A DNA stretch of 64,000 nucleotides. It comes from Pseudomonas fluorescens. Its GTDB lineage: Bacteria > Pseudomonadota > Gammaproteobacteria > Pseudomonadales > Pseudomonadaceae. Position 1 is the first letter of the stretch, and each line of letters starts with the position of its first letter. Shown piece by piece: positions 2,240 to 35,874 of this stretch. The position numbers were made by a program, and so were the translations under genes. The notes beneath the pieces are model-generated. The model was not told the DNA's origin, did no database searches, and saw only the letters and a list, made by a program, of their open reading frames with translations. The stretch covers positions 5,828,001 through 5,892,000 of the forward strand of contig NZ_LT907842.1 of assembly GCF_900215245.1 (NCBI RefSeq), written 5' to 3'.

Positions 2240-2612
2240 TTGCTGTGCTTTTGCTTCTACCACTCAGGTCGGCTGTCAGGCCGCCGTGCTCTGCTTTTGA
2301 TCTTGATCTGCTGTTGATCTTGATCTGACAGGCCCCGTTAACCACGCTGGCCTCACGCAGGCTTGAATCCGTGGGTAACCCGGCAGGACGCCGGGTTAGC
2401 CGCACTGGGCCAGGGATGGCCCATTGCGGCGGCCCACGGATTCAAGCCGGAGTGCGGGCATACCGAGCCTGGGCGAGGTACCGAGTGGTGGGGCAAAGCG
2501 TTTTTTGGTTACTTTTTTAGGCGTTTGTAAAAAAGTGACCCGCTGTAAGAGCGGAACCAATAGCCGCCGTTACCGCAGCAACGGATATGTACTCAATCTA
2601 CCTAAACGCCTC
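2240..2612 (+). repeat. Long dispersed intergenic repeat, copy B
   Basis: Copy B is in inverted orientation to copy A, about 370 bases away, and is direct and nearly identical to the copy at 34870-35249. With the REPIN to its left, the near-identity extends from about 2060 to 2612 (matching about 34702 to 35249). It ends at the shared ACCTAAACGCCT. Confidence 0.8.
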
Positions 2613-34701: not shown

Positions 34702-35249
34702 TCCCACAGAAAAGCACAGCGCCACGGCCTGGCAGTTGAACTCGGTCAAATTGTGGGAGCGGGCTTGCTCGCGAAAGCGGTGGGTCAGTTACAAATAAGC
34801 CGACTGACCCACCGCTTTCGCGAGCAAGCCCGCTCCCACATTTGGAACTCATTTCATCCGGTAAAAGTGCTGTTGCTGTGCTTTTGCCCCGCTTTTGCTT
34901 CATCCACTCAGGTCGGCTGTCAGGCCGCCGTGCTCTGCTTTTGATCTGCTGTTGATCTTGATCTGACAGGCCCCGTTAACCACGCTGGCCGAACGCAGGC
35001 TTGAATCCGTGGGTAACCCGGCAGGACGCCGGGTTAGCCGCAATGGGCCAGGGATGGCCCATTGCGGCGGCCCACGGATTCAAGCCGGAGTGAGGGCATG
35101 CCGAGCCTAGGCGAGGCACCGAGTGGTGGGGCAAAGCGTTTTTTGGTTACTTTTTTAGGCGTTTGTAAAAAAGTGACCCGCTGTAAGAGCGGAACCCTAA
35201 GCCGCCGTTACCGCAGCAACGGATATGTACTCATATCTACCTAAACGCC
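34702..35249 (+). repeat. Composite intergenic repeat, copy C (REPIN plus long repeat)
   Basis: This block is nearly identical, with small indels, to about 2060-2612. It includes an inverted REP pair (units near 34753-34777 and 34816-34839), the shared stretch GTCAGTTACAAATAAGCCGA between them, and the long repeat with the AACCCGGC/GCCGGGTT hairpin. It ends at ACCTAAACGCCT. No gene is visible between 34634 and 35574. Confidence 0.8.
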
Positions 35250-35387
35250 TGATCGACATGCATTGTTAAAGGCCAGCAATCCATATCCCTTTAATTTGCG
35301 GGAAGTTTCCTAGACAATCCTTTGGCCTTGCGCCTGCTCAGTCCACTGGCTAGCCTTCGCTCCGTCGCTGCATATCAGCGATCGGGT

Positions 35388-35565
35388 GTGAGATCCCGTG
35401 AACCTTTAGGCGCCACGAGCAATATGCTCTATGGCGGCTGTGTGCGGGCAGACTTCGGTCTGGCCGGGTGCTCCTACCTACTGGTTCCGGTATCTCACCC
35501 CGTACATAGCTGCCACCCTTTTGACGTGTGAGATCGGCAAAAGAAAGGCGCCCAACCCAGTAGGT
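35388..35565 (+). ncRNA. Switch-like leader RNA with mutually exclusive helices
   Basis: Fold 1 is a three-way junction closed by TGAGATCCCGTGAACC (35389-35404) with GGTTCCGGTATCTCA (35483-35497; one mismatch and one bulge). It encloses a hairpin CGCCA-c-GAGCA/TGCTC-ta-TGGCG (35411-35436) and a UUCG-capped hairpin CAGAC-TTCG-GTCTG (35449-35462). Fold 2 pairs ACCTACTGG (35476-35484) with CCAGTAGGT (35557-35565) and ATCTCAC (35492-35498) with GTGAGAT (35528-35534). Its last strand contains the AGG ribosome-binding site. The strand 35483-35498 is needed by both folds, so they compete. Confidence 0.6.
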
Positions 35566-35574
35566 AAATCATTC

Positions 35575-35874
35575 ATGAAAAAAATCGTCCCAGACCCACC
35601 CCGCTTCACCCTCGACCGAGAAATCTTCGAACGCGCCCTGAGCCACTACCTACAACCCGACTCAACGCCGTCCTTCACCGTGCACCACGACCTCAGCTTC
35701 GAAGACGCCCTCGCCCAAATCTGCGACTTGCTACGCTGTGCAGCCGCCACCGCAGCCGTCTCCAGCCAAGGATTGAACGGCGATCAACGCCACATCGCCG
35801 GCGCCACCGAGCACCTGATCAACAGCGCCAGAGCCCTCGCCGACCGCGCCCTGAACTGCCTGCACGCCGCATGA
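35575..35874 (+). CDS. Small pseudomonad protein (DUF3077/DUF6124-like)
   Basis: The 99-residue protein begins MKKIVPDPPRFTLDREIFERAL, an N-terminus I associate with a group of small Pseudomonas-only proteins named DUF3077 or DUF6124; the exact family is uncertain. It is mostly helical, with no signal or membrane segment. The C-terminal half (DLSFEDALAQICDLLRCAAATA ... ATEHLINSARALADRAL) looks like a two-helix hairpin with a Cys pair. Function unknown. Start ATG 35575 has AGGT 10 bases upstream, inside the strand that can be sequestered by the leader RNA. A REPIN follows its stop. Confidence 0.7.
   Translation: MKKIVPDPPRFTLDREIFERALSHYLQPDSTPSFTVHHDLSFEDALAQICDLLRCAAATAAVSSQGLNGDQRHIAGATEHLINSARALADRALNCLHAA

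Follow-up and report, generated by a model that had tools for sequence, protein, structure and literature searches.

The C4 antisense RNA was first recognised in phage P1 as an immunity regulator, and RNase P reportedly cleaves it at the GG that begins its P1 helix. The record of the phage P1 immI region (Accession No. AF234172) contains c4 (48343–48419), icd, ant1, and ant2; two elements, a1 and b1, are described there as 'putative', and two others, a2 and b2, as sites at which icd ant translation is repressed. The phage P1 a2 (TTGACAG) and b2 (GTTAGTG) are, by eye, complementary to stretches of the phage P1 C4. A second RNA family, c4-a1b1 (RF03163), appears in the list of Weinberg et al. 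2010, as far as the consulted part of that paper extends (PMC2864571). For Acinetobacter baumannii, the published account describes 21 'Group 1' C4-like sRNAs in one chromosome, together with RNA-seq signs that its C4-type RNAs arise from longer transcripts by processing at a GGW site (PMC5320573).

The locus described here lies in a 64,000-nt stretch of Pseudomonas fluorescens DNA, hereafter referred to as the window, and was regarded in the initial annotation as a switch-like leader RNA for which its author knew no named RNA family. However, positions 35427–35520 matched the Rfam covariance model of the C4 antisense RNA (RF01695) over its full length (71.1 bits versus a cut-off of 45, E = 3.7e-14), and the leader RNA is therefore a member of the C4 family rather than an unnamed riboswitch. 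Immediately upstream, positions 35350–35402 resemble c4-a1b1 from end to end with 45.9 bits (E = 1e-10), a score just 0.8 bits below the gathering score of 46.7. None of the 4227 Rfam families searched gave a match of the leader to a known riboswitch class, and nothing points to a sensed ligand. Three matches to the TwoAYGGAY RNA (RF01731) above the cut-off were also found in the window (2353–2455 and 34991–35093 on the + strand and 1658–1770 on the − strand), one of which precedes the C4 leader by ∼260 nt.

The elements of the cassette, all on the + strand, are arranged in the order of a promoter-like site, a1/b1, C4, a2, b2 over the ribosome-binding site, and a small ORF. At −87 from a1 lies a box, GGAAGTTTCCTAGA (35301–35314, by eye), which is related to a family motif (GGAc.ttTCC.ACA) and is a possible activator site. 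It is followed by a −35-like TTGCGC (35328–35333), which was obtained by a promoter-pattern search and is absent from the list of a generic promoter scan, and, after a 17-nt spacer, by a −10-like TAGCCT (35351–35356) that ends 31 nt before a1. The c4-a1b1 element forms two hairpins and carries a1 (GTGAGAT, 35388–35394) in the second loop. The imperfect complement of b' that we designate b1 (GAACCTTTAGG, 35400–35410, by eye) is placed like the putative b1 of phage P1. Downstream of C4, a2 (GTGAGAT, 35528–35534) is the target of a' (ATCTCAC, 35492–35498), and b2 (CCAGTAGGT, 35557–35565) is the target of b' (ACCTACTGG, 35476–35484) and includes the AGG (35562–35564) of the ribosome-binding site. 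The presumed regulated gene starts with the ATG at 35575 and encodes a 99-aa protein (35575–35874) that belongs to DUF6124 (PF19619; 49.5 bits versus a cut-off of 27). Thus, as expected for a C4 RNA, a' and b' are complementary to downstream sites of which the second covers the ribosome-binding site, and a second copy of the target is present upstream, a1 being exact and b1 imperfect. The initial annotation had already read the two copies of GTGAGAT, the single ATCTCAC between them, and the perfect 9-bp complementarity between ACCTACTGG and the ribosome-binding site region, all of which are present at the positions given above.

The initial annotation had also proposed that the leader is structured and that pairings which exclude one another can hide the ribosome-binding site, and this view holds: the fold of 35380–35600 was better than those of all 200 dinucleotide shuffles (z = −4.39). 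When the C4 part (35427–35520) was folded alone with RNAfold (z = −5.31), a three-way junction consisting of the P1, P2, and P3 helices was obtained, in which a' is single-stranded and b' sits in the large P3 loop, where it is partly paired in the minimum free energy (MFE) structure. The conserved junction is closed by the 17-bp P1 helix (35432–35448 paired with 35499–35515, supported by RNAfold and alignment) and, according to RNAfold and the Rfam model, encloses the P2 hairpin with a UUCG loop (35449–35462) and the P3 hairpin with the b' loop (35463–35491). The closing helix of the initial annotation (35389–35404 with 35483–35497) can be drawn by eye but is not the one that closes this junction; its first fold corresponds to a1/b1 paired with a'/b', and its second fold to a2/b2 paired with a'/b'. 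At the putative RNase P processing position, the GG of the P1 stem, TATGGCGG is present.

These features make it very probable that the locus is a chromosomal C4 antisense RNA cassette that regulates the adjacent DUF6124 gene. A promoter near 35328–35356 would drive a transcript containing a1/b1, C4, a2/b2, and the DUF6124 ORF, from which the C4 part, once folded into the three-way junction, would be excised, RNase P being the probable nuclease and the GG that starts the P1 helix the probable site. The a' and b' loops would then bind the a2 and b2 sites of this mRNA species, acting either in trans or in cis, and this pairing would cover the ribosome-binding site and block translation of the small protein. 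The a1/b1 element may bind the same loops and perhaps serve as a decoy for or a brake on C4, although this role is a guess. Given the annotation of phage P1 and the processing reported in Acinetobacter, intact C4 would expose a' and b' and keep the gene off, which is most likely the reverse of the initially proposed logic, in which the formed junction turned the gene on. Alternatively, the leader might be a cis-acting riboswitch or attenuator, a single molecule toggling between the two folds on a signal and involving no separate antisense RNA. Such toggling is physically possible because a1 and a2 compete for one a' within one transcript, but the fold that is conserved is that of the C4 junction, not the closing helix originally drawn, and the lack of any riboswitch match in Rfam also speaks against it; we consider this explanation very improbable.

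The genome that contains the window carries 30 C4 matches, 29 of which exceed the cut-off, and 24 DUF6124 matches. Each of the 29 C4 RNAs above the cut-off directly precedes a small ORF that starts 41–56 nt past the C4 end; the start was chosen by hand in two cases, namely 4636136 (the second in-frame ATG) and 1038194 (a 24-codon ORF that precedes the DUF3077 ORF). The targets comprise 19 DUF6124 proteins, three with DUF3077, one with Bro-N, and six of no assigned family. Three of these six are clearly of the MNQY type, and the other three, which are more divergent (26–38% identity to the first), were grouped with them by judgement. Eight of the 10 non-DUF6124 targets were scanned against Pfam; those at 1139681 and 1604687 were assigned via their identities to 1247781 (93%) and 2403793 (75%), respectively. 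The presence of several apparently unrelated small proteins downstream of C4 suggests that one RNA device serves several protein families. At 1038194–1038280, the short ORF that follows C4 ends in GGAQ-stop and overlaps the DUF3077 ORF by ATGA, an arrangement reminiscent of that in phage P1, where icd ends at ant1. A short ORF ending in GGAQ-stop also follows C4 at another locus (L052:1637–1795), where further small ORFs come after it.

To these 29 cassettes we added loci from other genomes. The searched set of 110 loci consists of 30 with the highest C4 scores (mostly one per genome), 79 found via the protein alone, and the phage P1 locus, which was missed by the DNA profile; 112 C4 RNAs in 105 of the other loci, together with the 29 of the window's genome, form a pooled set of 141 C4 loci. 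A perfect 7-mer match between a' and a2 was found in 137 of the 141 loci, as compared with 132 of 2820 controls that used the leader of a locus differing in a'; in the window's genome, the match is perfect in 28 of the 29 cassettes and 6-of-7 in the remaining one. In fixed register, 33 distinct a'/a2 combinations were observed, with three to five pair types at each position and failure of the seventh position in eight of the 33. An exact upstream copy of a2, namely a1, is present in 130 loci (61 of 2820 controls). The evidence for b'/b2 appears weaker than that for a'/a2: an uninterrupted run of at least 8 was found in 101 of the 138 loci with an identifiable start (1038194, L055, and L073 were dropped), versus 443 of 2760 controls, and the run is shorter than 8 in the other 37. 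Because the loop length varies, b'/b2 cannot be placed in fixed columns, but the sequences found across loci include sets such as CCTGTTC/GAACAGG, CCTGCTC/GAGCAGG, and CTCCTGC/GCAGGAG. Thus, the compensatory changes that the initial annotation had looked to for support are found in a'/a2, which covaries, and the b'/b2 match exceeds its control. Among the 30 loci from other genomes that were picked by C4 score alone, 28 contain an ORF that is 45 or more codons long and starts 28–110 nt past C4, the exceptions being L055 and L073; these ORFs include DUF6124, DUF3077, Bro-N, and a 52-codon family.

The leaders closest to that of the window were analysed separately in an alignment of 18 sequences (the window and 17 orthologous or near-copy leaders), in which the P1 helix, P2, and a'/a2 were scored as the structure. 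This structure was 99.4% paired (94.7% in shuffled alignments), 31 cells were changed on both sides (10.8 in shuffled alignments, none of 500 being as high), and the covariation score was 0.216 versus 0.127 (none of 500). Pairing fell to 29.5–50.8% when the partner was slid by 1–3 columns, although this control favours any structure derived from a sequence within the alignment, as was the case here. Six pairs had changes on both sides, a number that was not above the shuffles (69 of 500), nor was that of further pair types (13; 500 of 500). In the P1 helix, 99.7% of the cells were paired and both sides were changed in three of the 17 pairs; in a'/a2, the corresponding values were 98.4% and three of seven, and the P2 helix showed no two-sided change. 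The two-sided changes of the P1 helix and a'/a2 occur mostly in the same six sequences, indicating that they represent few independent events.

The pairing between C4 RNAs and leaders within the window's genome was predicted to be largely specific. The mean RNAduplex energy of a' plus b' was −22.7 kcal/mol for cognate and −12.9 kcal/mol for non-cognate combinations (none of 10000 permutations was as low), and for 26 of the 29 C4 RNAs, no leader surpassed their own as a partner. When each element was considered alone, the own leader was preferred by b' in 15 and by a' in 13 of the 29 cases. Seen from the leader, however, the cognate C4 is the best one in only 20 of the 29 cases; therefore, some cross-talk is predicted and insulation is incomplete. 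For example, according to the predicted energies, the leader at 3043813 is bound more strongly by the C4 of the window (−25.6 kcal/mol) than by its own C4 (−22.0). The 29 RNAs contain 17 distinct a' decamers and 29 distinct b' loops. In nine paralogue pairs with at least 60% protein identity, the C4 scaffold is 80–93% identical, whereas the b' loop is 42–71% identical; in the 397 other pairs, the means are 76% for the scaffold and 52% for the b' loop, the latter being hardly higher in the close pairs. This comparison indicates that b' changes faster than the surrounding C4 scaffold, and selection for insulation may drive this divergence. Variation of the b' loop among paralogues with similar scaffolds suits specificity elements rather than a ligand pocket and is a further point against a cis-acting riboswitch. 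Since a'/b' and a2/b2 differ together among the approximately thirty cassettes, each C4 probably serves mainly its own gene.

The region upstream of a1 is also shared among the cassettes. The pattern TTGnnn-16/17/18-TAnnnT, with the −10 end 29–33 nt before a1, was found in 28 of the 29 loci but in only three of 1450 mononucleotide-shuffled regions, suggesting that a1 is part of the transcript; a start before a1 is thus the predicted one, and a start downstream of 35404 seems unlikely. The GGAc.ttTCC.ACA box was obtained by Gibbs sampling of 20 deduplicated loci of the same genome, a set that does not include the locus of the window; in 14 of these 20 loci, the site is located at −85 to −98 from a1. 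Among the 112 other loci, 96 have a1 and enough sequence, and in 56 of these the box exceeds the 95th percentile of mononucleotide shuffles, 54 of the 56 lying at −86 to −100 from a1. Its conservation is in part a matter of shared ancestry, the loci being related by descent; the box may be an activator site shared by the cassettes.

C4 appears to be dispensable in some copies, given that five of the 24 DUF6124 matches in the window's genome have no C4 upstream and that three of the loci found via the protein alone (L094, L095, and L100) lack a C4 match. Three C4-less DUF6124 genes of the window's genome carry an a-type element a short distance ahead of the ribosome-binding site (L046:668–749, L047:590–674, and L049:630–715), and these elements (TCGCGGC, GTGGAAG, and GTGCAAG) are identical to the ones in the cassettes at 3807628, 2247247, and 1714386, respectively. 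A c4-a1b1 match is present in L046 (40 bits) and L047 (48.4 bits) but not in L049, and the hairpin is the MFE structure only in L046. The three genes may be remnants from which C4 has been deleted or targets in trans, the predicted b' pairing lending no support to control in trans. Sub-threshold matches to isrK (RF01394) overlap the a1/b1 leader in the window (35364–35432), in L046 (667–725), and in L047 (589–658), and perhaps hint at a kinship between isrK and the family of the a1/b1 leader. Another C4-less DUF6124 gene (L048:608–958) lies immediately upstream of a PrrF sRNA (L048:1002–1151, 160.8 bits).

The product of the window's ORF is, as initially proposed, a small pseudomonad protein: its named close relatives all belong to Pseudomonas, the best being 92% identical and from P. 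antarctica. The predicted model consists of a helical hairpin and one further short helix, and structure comparison yielded generic helical hairpins without an informative match. DUF6124 and DUF3077 are related according to profile comparison (97.6%), and no relation of the MNQY-like group to either was detectable. An N-terminus like M.K..P[DN]PP occurs in many DUF6124 proteins, some DUF3077 proteins, and, less exactly, the Bro-N target in the window's genome, the remainder of the proteins being different; in the related loci, the count of this N-terminus is biased because such a peptide was one of the patterns used in the search. Bro-N is a domain of phage antirepressors. Bro-N or Bro-N-like cargo was found in the C4 cassette at 2247247–2247334 of the window's genome and in L058, L060, L061, L064, and L067, with Pfam matches obtained for 2247247 and L060. 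In an evolved furfural-tolerant strain of P. putida, insertion of a single base reportedly restored the reading frame of PP_RS01475, a pseudogene with DUF3077 (PMC9630843). The combination of an antisense RNA with a small ORF in many copies raises the question of a toxin-antitoxin-like use, in which C4 would be an antisense antitoxin, the small helical protein a growth-arresting product, and the copies would multiply as such modules do. The phage P1 record, in which the product of icd, a gene under C4 control, is named an inhibitor of cell division, fits this idea, and the idea is compatible with the C4 cassette as the best explanation. However, no toxin match of the window protein was found in Pfam (DUF6124 only), NCBIfam, or PADLOC, the protein is by eye not a hydrophobic peptide, and its structure gave only the generic matches mentioned above; we therefore regard such a use as rather unlikely.

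C4 was found in 92 of the 99 sampled Pseudomonas genomes, in 91 of them above the cut-off. The median number of copies is 15; 42 genomes contain 20 or more, and eight contain at least 39 each (these counts are minima, since up to 39 candidates were scored per genome). In an order-level sample, in which 21 candidates were scored per genome, 30 of 195 genomes contain C4; the matching genomes outside the bacterial family have at most six copies each, and one genome of another genus in the family has 14. DUF6124 is present in 79 of the 99 Pseudomonas genomes, and its copy number correlates with that of C4 (rho = 0.88 over 99 genomes, kinship ignored). Among the 79 loci found by the protein alone, 75 have a C4 match; besides the three C4-less loci mentioned above, L101 is cut by a contig end. 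The next gene after the DUF6124 ORF of the window is sbcD, and 15 of these 79 loci are located near sbcD and/or the gene upstream of the cassette (12 near both), suggesting a stable chromosomal position in related species; L100 is one of the 15 and yet has no C4. A decaying prophage remnant without a present function is extremely improbable: C4 is known from phages, and the thirtieth C4 of the window's genome (1234898, 44.9 bits, sub-threshold) has no evident target, but the locus is syntenic beside sbcD and the pairing is kept over many species while the letters change. The role of C4 in phages P1 and P7 likewise suggests an anti-phage defence, in which chromosomal C4 RNAs would silence the incoming antirepressor mRNA of phages with C4-type immunity, as has been suggested for Acinetobacter (PMC5320573). 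This explanation is improbable because all 29 C4 RNAs have a matching adjacent target, so that self-regulation explains their specificity; in addition, a search of 50,697 phage records gave no match to the window protein.

As a whole, the initial annotation is partly supported by our analysis. C4 and c4-a1b1 (PMC2864571) and the multiplication of C4 in A. baumannii (PMC5320573) are already known, as far as can be judged from the consulted parts of these papers. Our literature searches, which did not reach supplements, returned no description of a Pseudomonas C4 array with its own cis targets. We tentatively propose, as a possibility that we favour less than its opposite, that an immunity RNA of phages was domesticated and now exists throughout the genus as chromosomal cassettes, up to at least 39 in a genome, which have their promoter layout and upstream box in common, whose largely insulated antisense specificities re-diversify after each duplication, and which are attached to several apparently unrelated small-protein families. 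The set would then represent a near-orthogonal library of RNA regulators and possibly a toxin-antitoxin or anti-phage repertoire. If so, a phage regulatory RNA would have become a widespread feature of a bacterial genus. The 29 related antisense pairs in one cell make the evolution of RNA–RNA specificity directly testable, and two Pfam families without a known function, DUF6124 and DUF3077, gain a regulatory context.

In comparison with the known systems, the immI region of phage P1 has a1, b1, C4, a2, b2, and a small ORF in the same order as the window, with a2 a few nt past C4 and b2 at the ribosome-binding site. The flank of the phage P1 a2 (GTTT...GCG) is common to many sister copies in the window's genome but not to the window's own copy. 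The immI regions of phages P1 and P7 are carried by phages and have a small ORF followed by an antirepressor gene; in contrast, the cassette of the window, with 15 related loci sharing a chromosomal neighbourhood and no phage-record match, is chromosomal, exists in tens of copies per genome, targets DUF6124 instead of icd/ant, and is followed by sbcD. An annotated C1 operator is located upstream in phage P1, whereas the Pseudomonas cassettes have the shared box. The Group 1 RNAs of A. baumannii resemble the Pseudomonas array in that many C4-type RNAs are encoded in one bacterial chromosome. Their targets were left open in the part of that account available to us (PMC5320573), whereas each C4 above the cut-off in the window's genome has an adjacent target with matching a2/b2, and these cassettes thus supply candidate targets for host-borne C4 RNAs.
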